DNA from: Nocardioides iriomotensis
GTDB taxonomy: Bacteria; Actinomycetota; Actinomycetes; Propionibacteriales; Nocardioidaceae
Reading direction: 5' to 3'
DNA: 64,000 bases
Assembly: GCF_004168035.1 (NCBI RefSeq)
Contig: NZ_SDPU01000012.1
Coordinates: forward strand, 62,001 to 126,000
A model generated the notes under the pieces. It was not told the DNA's origin. It saw only the letters and a program-made list of their open reading frames with translations, and did not search any database. Made by a program: the position numbers and the translations under genes. Of the stretch, positions 60,817 to 63,192 are shown one piece after another (within the stretch, counting starts at the first letter, position 1; each line of letters starts with the position of its first letter).

Positions 60817-60940
60817 GCGAGCCTCCGCTCCGGCACCCGCCACCCACGAACCTAGGGGTCGGTCTGGTCCACGGCCATAGCGTGTTTGGGCCCTTGCCCC
60901 GGCGGAAACTCTCCCGGCACCGAGGCGAAGGAGGTGGGCC

Positions 60941-61165
60941 GTGTTCCCGTCCCGCTTCATGCCGTGCCCCGAGTGCGGCGGGTCCGTCGAGCGCGCCGAG
61001 CAGGAGAGCCACGCCTGCGACCCCGAGCGTCGCCTCGACTTCCGGATGTTCCTGCTGCGCGAGGAGATCCTCTCGTTCGAGCGGCAGTTCCACGAGTTCG
61101 CCGACACCCGCGACGGCCGCTTCGAGACCTGGGTCGCGTCCCGGACCGTCCGCGGCCGCCCCTGA
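60941..61165 (+). CDS. Small zinc-ribbon-like protein, unknown function
   Basis: A 74-residue protein. The N-terminal CPEC plus a later His-Ala-Cys (SHACDPERR) could form a small zinc site, and the remainder is helical with LREEILSFERQFHEF. The GTG start has GAAGGAGG about 6 nt upstream. It lies 22 bp before xth and may be the first gene of the xth-rmuC group. No family is recognised. Confidence 0.7.
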   Translation: MFPSRFMPCPECGGSVERAEQESHACDPERRLDFRMFLLREEILSFERQFHEFADTRDGRFETWVASRTVRGRP

Positions 61166-61175
61166 GCACCGTCCC

Positions 61176-61181
61176 TACAGT
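61176..61181 (+). promoter_or_regulatory. -10 box of a likely leaderless xth transcript
   Basis: TACAGT lies exactly 6 nt before the xth GTG at 61188. Confidence 0.5.
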
Positions 61182-61187
61182 GACCAC

Positions 61188-61964
61188 GTGCGTATCGCCA
61201 CGTGGAACGTCAACTCCGTCCGCTCCCGCATCAGCCGCGTCGAGGCGCTCGTCGAGCGCCACGACATCGACGTGCTCGCCCTCCAGGAGACCAAGGCCCG
61301 CGACGACCAGTGGCCACTGATGGGGCTGCAGGCGATGGGGTACGACGTCGCCACGCTCGGCTTCAACCAGTGGAACGGTGTCGCCCTGGTGTCACGCGTC
61401 GGGCTCGAGGACGTCCAGCGCGGCTTCTCCGGGATGCCCCAGTGGGGTGAGCCGCTCGCCGACGAGGCGCGCGCGATCGGCGCCACCTGCGGCGGCGTCC
61501 GCGTCTGGTCGCTCTACGTCCCCAACGGCCGCAAGATCGACGACCCGCACTACGTCTACAAGCTCGACTGGCTGGCCCGGCTACGCGACGCCGCGAAGCC
61601 CTGGCTCGACGCCGACACCGCCCTGGTCGGCGACTGGAACATCGCGCCGCTCGACGAGGACGTCTTCGACATGGCGGCGTACGCCAAGGACACCCACGTC
61701 ACGCCGCCCGAGCGGGCCGCCTTCAAGGCCTTCCTCGACGACGGGTACGTCGACGTGGTCCGTCCGCACACGCCGGGCCCGGGGGTCTTCACGTACTGGG
61801 ACTACTACCGCCAGCGCTTCGAGCGGAACCGCGGCATGCGCATCGACTTCGTCCTCGGCTCGCCGTCGCTCGCCGGCCGGGTCACCACCGCCTTCATCGA
61901 CCGCGACGAGCGGGCCGGCCAGGGCGCGAGCGACCACGCCCCGGTGGTCGTCGACCTGGACTGA
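61188..61964 (+). CDS. xth: Exodeoxyribonuclease III
   Basis: A 258-residue Mg2+-dependent nuclease of the ExoIII/APE family. Signature segments are TWNVNSVRSR, LQETKA (catalytic Glu), GDWNIAP (Asp-Asn), and the terminal SDHAPVVVDL (Asp-His). It cleaves DNA at abasic sites and degrades 3' ends. The GTG start matches the leaderless TACAGT box. The genes downstream are rmuC and DUF6542. Confidence 0.94.
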   Translation: MRIATWNVNSVRSRISRVEALVERHDIDVLALQETKARDDQWPLMGLQAMGYDVATLGFNQWNGVALVSRVGLEDVQRGFSGMPQWGEPLADEARAIGATCGGVRVWSLYVPNGRKIDDPHYVYKLDWLARLRDAAKPWLDADTALVGDWNIAPLDEDVFDMAAYAKDTHVTPPERAAFKAFLDDGYVDVVRPHTPGPGVFTYWDYYRQRFERNRGMRIDFVLGSPSLAGRVTTAFIDRDERAGQGASDHAPVVVDLD

Positions 61965-62013: not shown

Positions 62014-63192
62014 ATGGATCTCGGTACGACGCTCTCGCTCCTCGTCACGCTGCTCGTCGGCGTCGCGATCGGCACCGGCGTGGGCTGGCTCCTCGCCCGC
62101 ACCCGCGCCACCGGGCACGACGCCGCCATCGCCCGGCGCGAGATCGAGTCGCGTGCCGCCGACCACGCCGTGGTCCGCGAGGGGCTCGACCGGCTCCACG
62201 ACCGCATGCGCGACCTCGAGCACCACCGCGTCTCGTGGCAGAGCCAGCTCAAGCAGCAGGTCGACGAGATGCGGCTCTCCACCGAGTCGCTGCGCCGCGA
62301 GACGTCGACCCTCACGACCGCCTTGCGGCGGCCCCAGGTCCGCGGCCGCTGGGGCGAGCTGCACCTCCGCCGCGCCGTCGAGCTCGCCGGCCTGGTCGCG
62401 CGCTGCGACTTCGACGAGCAGGTCTCCGTGCGCCACGACCCTTCGACAGGCTCAGGACACGGCGAGGCCGCCCTCCGGCCCGACATGGTGGTCCACCTCG
62501 CCGGCGGCAAGCAGGTCGTCGTCGACGCCAAGGTGCCGCTCGACGCCTTCCTCGACGCCACCTCGGCCGACGACGAGGAGGAGCACCTCGCCCACCTGCG
62601 CCGGCACGCCCGCCAGCTGCGCCAGCACGTCGACACGCTCGGCGGCAAGGCCTACTGGCGCGGCCTCCGGGCGACGCCCGAGTTCGTCGTGCTCTTCGTG
62701 CCCGGGGAGTCGTTCCTCTCGGCCGCGCTCGAGGCCGACCCCACGCTGATCGAGCACGCCGCCTCGCGCCAGGTGGTGCTGGCCACCCCGACCACGCTCA
62801 TCGCCCTGCTCCGCACCATCGCCCACGCCTGGACGCAGGAGGTCCTCGCCGACCGGGTGCACGACATCCACGTGCTCGGCCGCGAGCTGCACGAGCGGCT
62901 CGCCACCATGGGCGACCACCTCGACAAGGTCGGCCGCGGGCTCACCGCCGCCGTCGCCGCCTACAACCGCGCGATCGGCTCGCTGGAGTCGCGCGTGCTC
63001 GTGTCGGCCCGGCGCTTCACCGACCTGGAGGTCACCCCCGACGCACTCCCCGCTCCCGAGCCGGTCACCGACGCCCCGCGCCAGCTCAGCGCGGCCGAGC
63101 TGCTCGACGCCGTCGCGGAGCCACGACCCGAGCTGCCCGACGCCGCCGACGAGGGGCCGCGGGGCGACAGCACCCCCCGACGCACCGCATGA
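62014..63192 (+). CDS. rmuC: RmuC-family DNA recombination protein
   Basis: A 392-residue protein: N-terminal membrane helix (about residues 3-25), a coiled coil (about 40-110) and the nuclease-like RmuC core. The RGRWGELHLRRAVELAGL and VVDAKVPLDAF segments are characteristic, with a catalytic-like Asp-Ala-Lys. It limits DNA rearrangement at inverted repeats. An in-frame insertion at about residues 142-149 (DPSTGSGH) comes from a REP-like element. The ATG is 49 bp after the xth stop. Confidence 0.92.
   Translation: MDLGTTLSLLVTLLVGVAIGTGVGWLLARTRATGHDAAIARREIESRAADHAVVREGLDRLHDRMRDLEHHRVSWQSQLKQQVDEMRLSTESLRRETSTLTTALRRPQVRGRWGELHLRRAVELAGLVARCDFDEQVSVRHDPSTGSGHGEAALRPDMVVHLAGGKQVVVDAKVPLDAFLDATSADDEEEHLAHLRRHARQLRQHVDTLGGKAYWRGLRATPEFVVLFVPGESFLSAALEADPTLIEHAASRQVVLATPTTLIALLRTIAHAWTQEVLADRVHDIHVLGRELHERLATMGDHLDKVGRGLTAAVAAYNRAIGSLESRVLVSARRFTDLEVTPDALPAPEPVTDAPRQLSAAELLDAVAEPRPELPDAADEGPRGDSTPRRTA
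62440..62460 (+). repeat. REP-like element inserted inside rmuC
   Basis: CCTTCGACAGGCTCAGGACA resembles the widespread bacterial interspersed repeat that encodes PSTGSG in this frame and LRQAQ in the opposite sense-frame. It falls where RmuC homologues go directly from the VSV strand to ALRPDMVV, so it is an in-frame insertion. No second copy was noticed in the window. Confidence 0.65.

Follow-up and report, generated by a model that had tools for sequence, protein, structure and literature searches.

We found that the rmuC gene of Nocardioides iriomotensis harbours, inside its coding region and in frame, a short DNA element that is repeated elsewhere in the genome. The segment most probably represents a non-autonomous mobile stem-loop of the REP-like type, one copy of which was inserted after an Asp codon and is tolerated in a loop of the protein. 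The gene is located on the plus strand at positions 62014..63192 of the window (the whole 64-kb stretch of DNA that was analysed), with its ATG at 62014 and its stop codon ending at 63192, and encodes a protein of 392 amino acids that was identified as RmuC (Pfam PF02646, E 2.8e-91). RmuC is a predicted PD-(D/E)XK nuclease (PMC1189080), and P156, D157, D171 and K173 are invariant columns across 29 RmuC sequences. The ORF directly upstream of rmuC (60882-61964) resembles exodeoxyribonuclease III by eye; about 50 bases separate its stop from the rmuC start.

The core of the element, the 17-mer CCTTCGACAGGCTCAGG, lies at 62440..62456 (+) and forms codons 143-148, encoding PSTGSG. It contains the constant loop of the stem-loop, TCGACAGGCTC, at 62443..62453 (+). 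Immediately 5′ of the element, GAC at 62437..62439 (+) encodes Asp142; this is the commonest triplet before in-gene copies, and residues 142-149 of RmuC read DPSTGSGH. Within the window the core was the sole match to the 17-mer at up to three mismatches, compared to a mean of 0.41 chance matches in shuffles, and the loop TCGACAGGCTC had a single exact occurrence. The window alone is little proof, because this chance figure only covers up to three mismatches. In the whole genome (4,713,567 bases, 47 contigs), 15 exact copies and six copies with one mismatch were counted, and none for a backwards control. The initial annotation had described a short sequence of a widespread, REP-like type within the RmuC coding region, and both its presence and its REP-like nature are supported.

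To compare RmuC with its relatives, we searched 81 genomes of the family Nocardioidaceae, obtained a match in 75, and compared the best 30 loci (the N. iriomotensis gene and 29 others). The core was present only in N. iriomotensis. The distance from the CDF to the MVV motif is 30 residues in this species and 22, exactly eight shorter, in 19 of the 29 relatives; in the others it is 20 (two loci), 23 (four), 26 (one), 27 (one) or 29 (two). The nearest relative (77% identity) reads SVRSD-DGLLRPD where N. iriomotensis reads SVRHD-PSTGSGHG-EAALRPD, from which an insert of 24 bp encoding PSTGSGHG can be placed at 62440..62463 (+). Its edges are uncertain by about one codon, so that it may be read as DPSTGSGH or PSTGSGHG, and as 24 bp or as 21 bp plus loop drift. 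The claim that about eight residues were added without disturbing the frame therefore holds, as does the expectation that relatives lack them, and none of the loci compared encodes the same segment in different DNA. Could the segment be a native variable loop of RmuC that happens to carry the sequence? Loop length drifts naturally by a few residues, as the range of 20-29 in the relatives shows, and two RmuC loci (L025 and L290) have longer loops of their own that are unrelated to the element. However, eight extra residues together with repeat DNA are peculiar to N. iriomotensis among the 30 loci, the exact 17-mer is repeated in the genome while its control is absent, and identical DNA is found in unrelated genes. 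We consider a native loop extremely improbable.

The copy number of the element differs strongly between genomes. Exact copies in N. iriomotensis and six congeners numbered 15, 5, 0, 0, 0, 0 and 0. The loop 11-mer TCGACARGCTC occurred 115 times in the N. iriomotensis genome, compared to 31 for its control; in the six congeners the corresponding pairs were 35/33, 47/28, 29/30, 13/19, 31/20 and 22/31, two of them mildly exceeding the control. The element family was amplified in N. iriomotensis. Furthermore, the exact core was found in 53 of 197 genomes of the family, at 0-49 copies per genome and with controls at 0, and the R-variant of the core in 11 of 296 genomes of the phylum (N. iriomotensis included), so its distribution is patchy. 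As the copies were collected by the exact core, decayed copies are under-sampled.

In public genome contigs, the core was present in at least 118 stretches. Among the matches listed, the record titles, taken as given and many of them belonging to metagenome bins, name Pseudomonadota groups, Bacteroidetes, Chloroflexi, Cyanobacteria, Armatimonadetes, Patescibacteria, Eremiobacterota, Myxococcales, Zixibacteria, Elusimicrobia, Dadabacteria and Actinomycetota. Viral contigs contained at least 120 stretches (L385-L504), compared to six for the backwards pattern. On a contig titled Synechococcaceae, the core forms a tandem array with a 24-bp period (L064:89-153). Since a random 17-mer is estimated to match such a collection dozens of times, the case rests on the anatomy of the element.

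This anatomy was studied by taking all copies of the loop, leaving out those with the CCT..AGG flanks used in searching, and scoring four bases on each side for complementarity. In public genome contigs, stem pairs 1-4 were Watson-Crick in 81-82% of 68 copies among the matches listed, compared to 15-38% when slid by one base. Among the matches listed for viral contigs the values were 77-83% of 47 copies and 13-36%, and in the family set 60-79% of 70 copies and 16-63%, with pair 3 of the latter showing no excess over its slid control (0.60 vs 0.63). A reversed-loop control with 16 copies paired at 56, 38, 31 and 19%. Pairs 2-4 are made up of several pair types. Covarying flanks around a constant centre indicate a stem-loop with a constant loop; four to five covarying pairs surround an 11-base constant stretch, within which, by inspection, pairing continues with mismatches. 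Directly outside the 17-mer, the first base was paired in 17 of 39 in-gene copies compared to 48 of 70 non-coding ones. The RmuC copy itself keeps little of the stem, its plus strand folding no better than shuffles (z 0.22).

A short, highly conserved 17-mer that is found on both strands and in coding as well as non-coding DNA might also be a binding site for a host protein or a DNA-uptake-type signal, selected at many places and not mobile. However, the number of exact copies jumps between congeners, the copies in genes bring extra bases and not point changes, and a covarying stem with a constant loop fits a hairpin element. Such a signal is therefore unlikely, and we infer that the stem-loop spreads by copying and insertion.

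Among the 21 copies in the N. iriomotensis genome, five are internal to genes, namely rmuC, tsaE and those encoding an M1 peptidase, an SdhA-like protein and a carbon-nitrogen hydrolase. Six others are in frame at the presumed starts of genes for PRA-CH (hisI), a CoxE-like protein, hydantoinase B, urocanase, D-Ala-D-Ala ligase and a flavin/iron-sulfur reductase, and the other ten were placed in no gene by eye. A longer palindromic form, which reads as an in-frame N-terminal extension, lies by the presumed starts of five genes of this genome (L002, L006, L011, L013 and L021, around position 1501), and in L012 such a form lies upstream of the gene start. The protein encoded by tsaE is eight residues longer than in five of six congeners; the sixth (G004) has PGTGSG in other codons. 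The carbon-nitrogen hydrolase is eight residues longer than all three proteins compared, and the M1 peptidase eight longer than in one and seven longer than in five of six congeners, while the length difference of sdhA is variable. PSTGSG-like peptides in different DNA include, besides PGTGSG of G004, PSTGSA in L365; these sequences show that a native origin or decay of such loops is possible.

In the relatives, the element is found in genes for acyl-CoA dehydrogenases, aconitase-like and DapF-like proteins and others (named by eye). Four acyl-CoA dehydrogenases (assigned by eye) from four species (L044, L188, L199 and L218) carry the insert at a common place in the alignment, and in three species the element follows the same Asp of an sdhA-like gene (L015, L053 and L054). 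These shared sites suggest that sites are filtered by protein tolerance, and rmuC is one target among many. Insert length in the relatives was compared for 14 in-gene proteins, with close relatives usable for eight, distant paralogues for four and none for two. Two acyl-CoA dehydrogenases gained seven residues over 10 of 10 relatives (L044, 79-89% identity) and six of six (L199, 67-88%), L045 gained eight over five of nine and 12 over four of nine, and the remaining proteins 1-12. Inserts were most often 6-8 residues in the genes compared; the net difference to relatives without the core was 1-12 residues depending on gene and relative, part of which is ordinary loop variation. The gain of eight residues in RmuC, TsaE and the carbon-nitrogen hydrolase, together with nested 24-bp copies described below, had favoured a fixed 24-bp unit as the rule; this was dropped, as insert lengths vary.

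Next, we classified 168 distinct family sites among the matches listed, including 100 extra stretches, using a home-made codon-usage classifier trained on 124 ORFs. Forty-four sites were internal to a gene and in frame, 48 had coding sequence on one side and 70 on neither side; three had both sides coding on one strand with another frame or a stop, and three lay between opposite strands. The peptide encoded at the 44 in-frame sites was PSTGSG in 39 cases, PEPVEG in four and LRQAQ in one. This excess of PSTGSG gave p 2e-22 against equal use of the five open frames, p 6e-7 when weighted by the availability of GAC and p 3e-4 when weighted by CGAC; these values are too small, since the sites in orthologous or similar genes (L028/L034, L015/L053/L054 and L038/L203) were all counted although they are not independent. 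GAC preceded 25 of the 39 in-gene PSTGSG copies but only 12 of the 70 copies with neither side coding (Fisher p 2e-6), which would fit a preference for GAC as target. Such a target explains much of the frame bias, because GAC triplets in coding DNA fall most often in frame, and with the mirror arrangement a 24-bp unit contains a stop. Of the in-gene copies without a preceding GAC, 14 of 18 were still PSTGSG. We had also considered the frame preference as pure selection and dropped this, since part of it follows from the placement of GAC codons; what remains after GAC weighting points to selection for the flexible polar peptide.

An E. coli phenotype implicates RmuC in restraining inversions where short inverted repeats occur, and the protein is predicted to cut structures at such repeats (PMC1189080). 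The initial annotation had linked the element to this role, a link that found no support: the element is also in frame in the four other genes named above. An inverted repeat in an anti-inverted-repeat gene needs no explanation, because 44 in-gene sites are known and most are in other kinds of genes. The coincidence is probably just that. An adaptive role, in which the insertion would tune RmuC (for example the action of its nuclease domain at inverted repeats), would be favoured by the predicted activity and by the position of the insert, which lies about six residues ahead of the invariant P156-D157. In an AlphaFold2 model of middling quality (mean pLDDT 76.1, pTM 0.50) the insert lies in a flexible loop (residues 135-152; 62416..62469, +) just N-terminal to the PD motif and strand 158-161, with pLDDT below 50 at residues 135-142 and 144-152 (residue 143 excepted). 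A search for solved structures matching RmuC by sequence gave none at E 0.01. The low confidence of the loop, the occurrence of the element in many unrelated genes and its restriction to one species among 30 loci all speak against a benefit for RmuC, which we regard as very unlikely. The model instead fits an insertion that is tolerated in a flexible loop.

Some copies of the element are nested, with a 24-bp unit (the core plus ACGGCGC or ACATCGC) located exactly within the loop of another palindrome. These were found in the N. iriomotensis genome (L006:1495-1535, and L013 near 1501 on the minus strand) and in contigs titled Bacteroidales (L085) and Litorilinea (L092); a fifth match of the nested scan, L132, differs in its layout and contains 25 bases. 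In the N. iriomotensis genome the pattern TCTCGACN{0,30}AGGCTCGACC gave 37 matches, of which 35 were empty palindromes TCTCGACAGGCTCGACC, one had exactly 24 extra bases at the loop apex and one spanned two adjacent palindromes. This suggests that the element inserts at hairpin apices. The nested form, present across contigs of three phyla, may also be one compound element that spread.

As to what moves the element, we searched 20 element-bearing genomes for the Y1 transposase family PF01797 (E 0.001), which we take to cover RAYTs, and found it in none, N. iriomotensis included; the control search was positive in five of 14 known genomes. A MITE would carry the terminal inverted repeats of an insertion sequence and a target duplication; by eye, the five genes of this genome with an insert showed no consistent target duplication. 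A REP of the GTAG type that is mobilised by a RAYT (TnpA-REP, a Y1 transposase) would match the size, the palindromic shape and the patchy copy number. The absence of PF01797 rules it out in these 20 genomes unless a Y1 gene is missing from the assemblies, and the core contains no GTAG, leaving little chance for such an origin. It is conceivable, if doubtful, that dedicated non-Y1 machinery moves the element. The same tentative standing applies to a broader picture, in which a mobile hairpin, shared by several phyla and fixed in its 11-base loop, would be carried by candidate non-Y1 machinery that favours GAC and hairpin apices; landing after Asp codons with a unit that is a multiple of three, it would repeatedly write DPSTGSG linkers into surface turns of unrelated proteins. 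The copy number contrasts sharply between congeners, and the mover could therefore be sought by comparing which genes are present in sister species rich in the element and in those free of it.

For rmuC we propose the following course. A stem-loop with the constant loop and a variable stem would have multiplied in N. iriomotensis, its insert in genes being most often about 18-24 bp and 24 bp in rmuC, and one copy would have landed after an Asp codon of this gene. As a multiple of three in the PSTGSG register, it would have added eight polar, flexible residues to the loop before the PD-(D/E)XK motif, which RmuC presumably tolerated.

We searched literature text for the core or its A variant (15-base strings, either strand) without a match, figures, supplements and subscription papers lying outside the search; among PSTGSG-type peptide strings only PSTSSG matched, in an unrelated context. 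The available portion of PMC12306157 contains neither TTCGAC nor Nocardioides. The element has thus not been met in these actinobacteria in the literature searched. The closest known systems are GTAG REPs, CGTC-tagged REPs and Rickettsia palindromic elements. GTAG REPs are likewise imperfect palindromes in high copy number, of which some lie in ORFs (PMC3733652), and are recognised and cut by TnpA-REP (PMC8266576). Unlike these, our element lacks GTAG in the core, the flanks of 97 sites inspected by eye show no constant GTAG, and the Y1 transposase of REP/RAYT systems was not detected in the genomes searched.

CGTC-tagged REPs (Di Nocera 2013, PMC3733652) are also short stem-loops from several phyla, some in genes, and are described as having no dedicated transposase. 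Our genomes agree with this as far as PF01797, the sole class sought, is concerned. The five phyla listed for them in the portion of PMC3733652 available to us do not include Actinobacteria, and its main text mentions neither 'actinobacteria' nor 'nocardioides'. A CGTC REP has a stem of 8-9 bp, a loop of 4-5 bases and a CGTC (or TGTC/CCTC) end. The present element has 4-5 covarying pairs around its 11-base constant stretch, and further, mismatched pairing inside this stretch by inspection. A CGTC tag appears not to be constant in it: by eye, some of the 97 sites continue with GACG or GACA after the stem (CGTC or TGTC in reverse), but many with GAACGG or GACCG. In the RmuC copy, TGTC precedes CTGAGC on the minus strand.

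Rickettsia palindromic elements (RPEs) are likewise palindromic and in frame in many unrelated genes, in solvent-exposed parts of the proteins (PMC3767692, PMC10969869). As described there, they measure about 100-150 bp and belong to Rickettsia and Wolbachia, whereas the present element is found in Actinomycetota and adds at most 24 bp in most genes; with a core of 17 bp and a gain of eight residues in RmuC, it falls well below the RPE size. The in-frame REP-like insertion in rmuC is real, and is of a kind already described for RPEs and intragenic GTAG and CGTC REPs. In-frame palindromic inserts are visible cases in which selfish DNA contributes protein sequence; the best-known ones come from Rickettsia (PMC10969869). 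The element shows an RPE-like process in Actinomycetota, with no Y1 transposase found, a much smaller unit and a strong frame preference.
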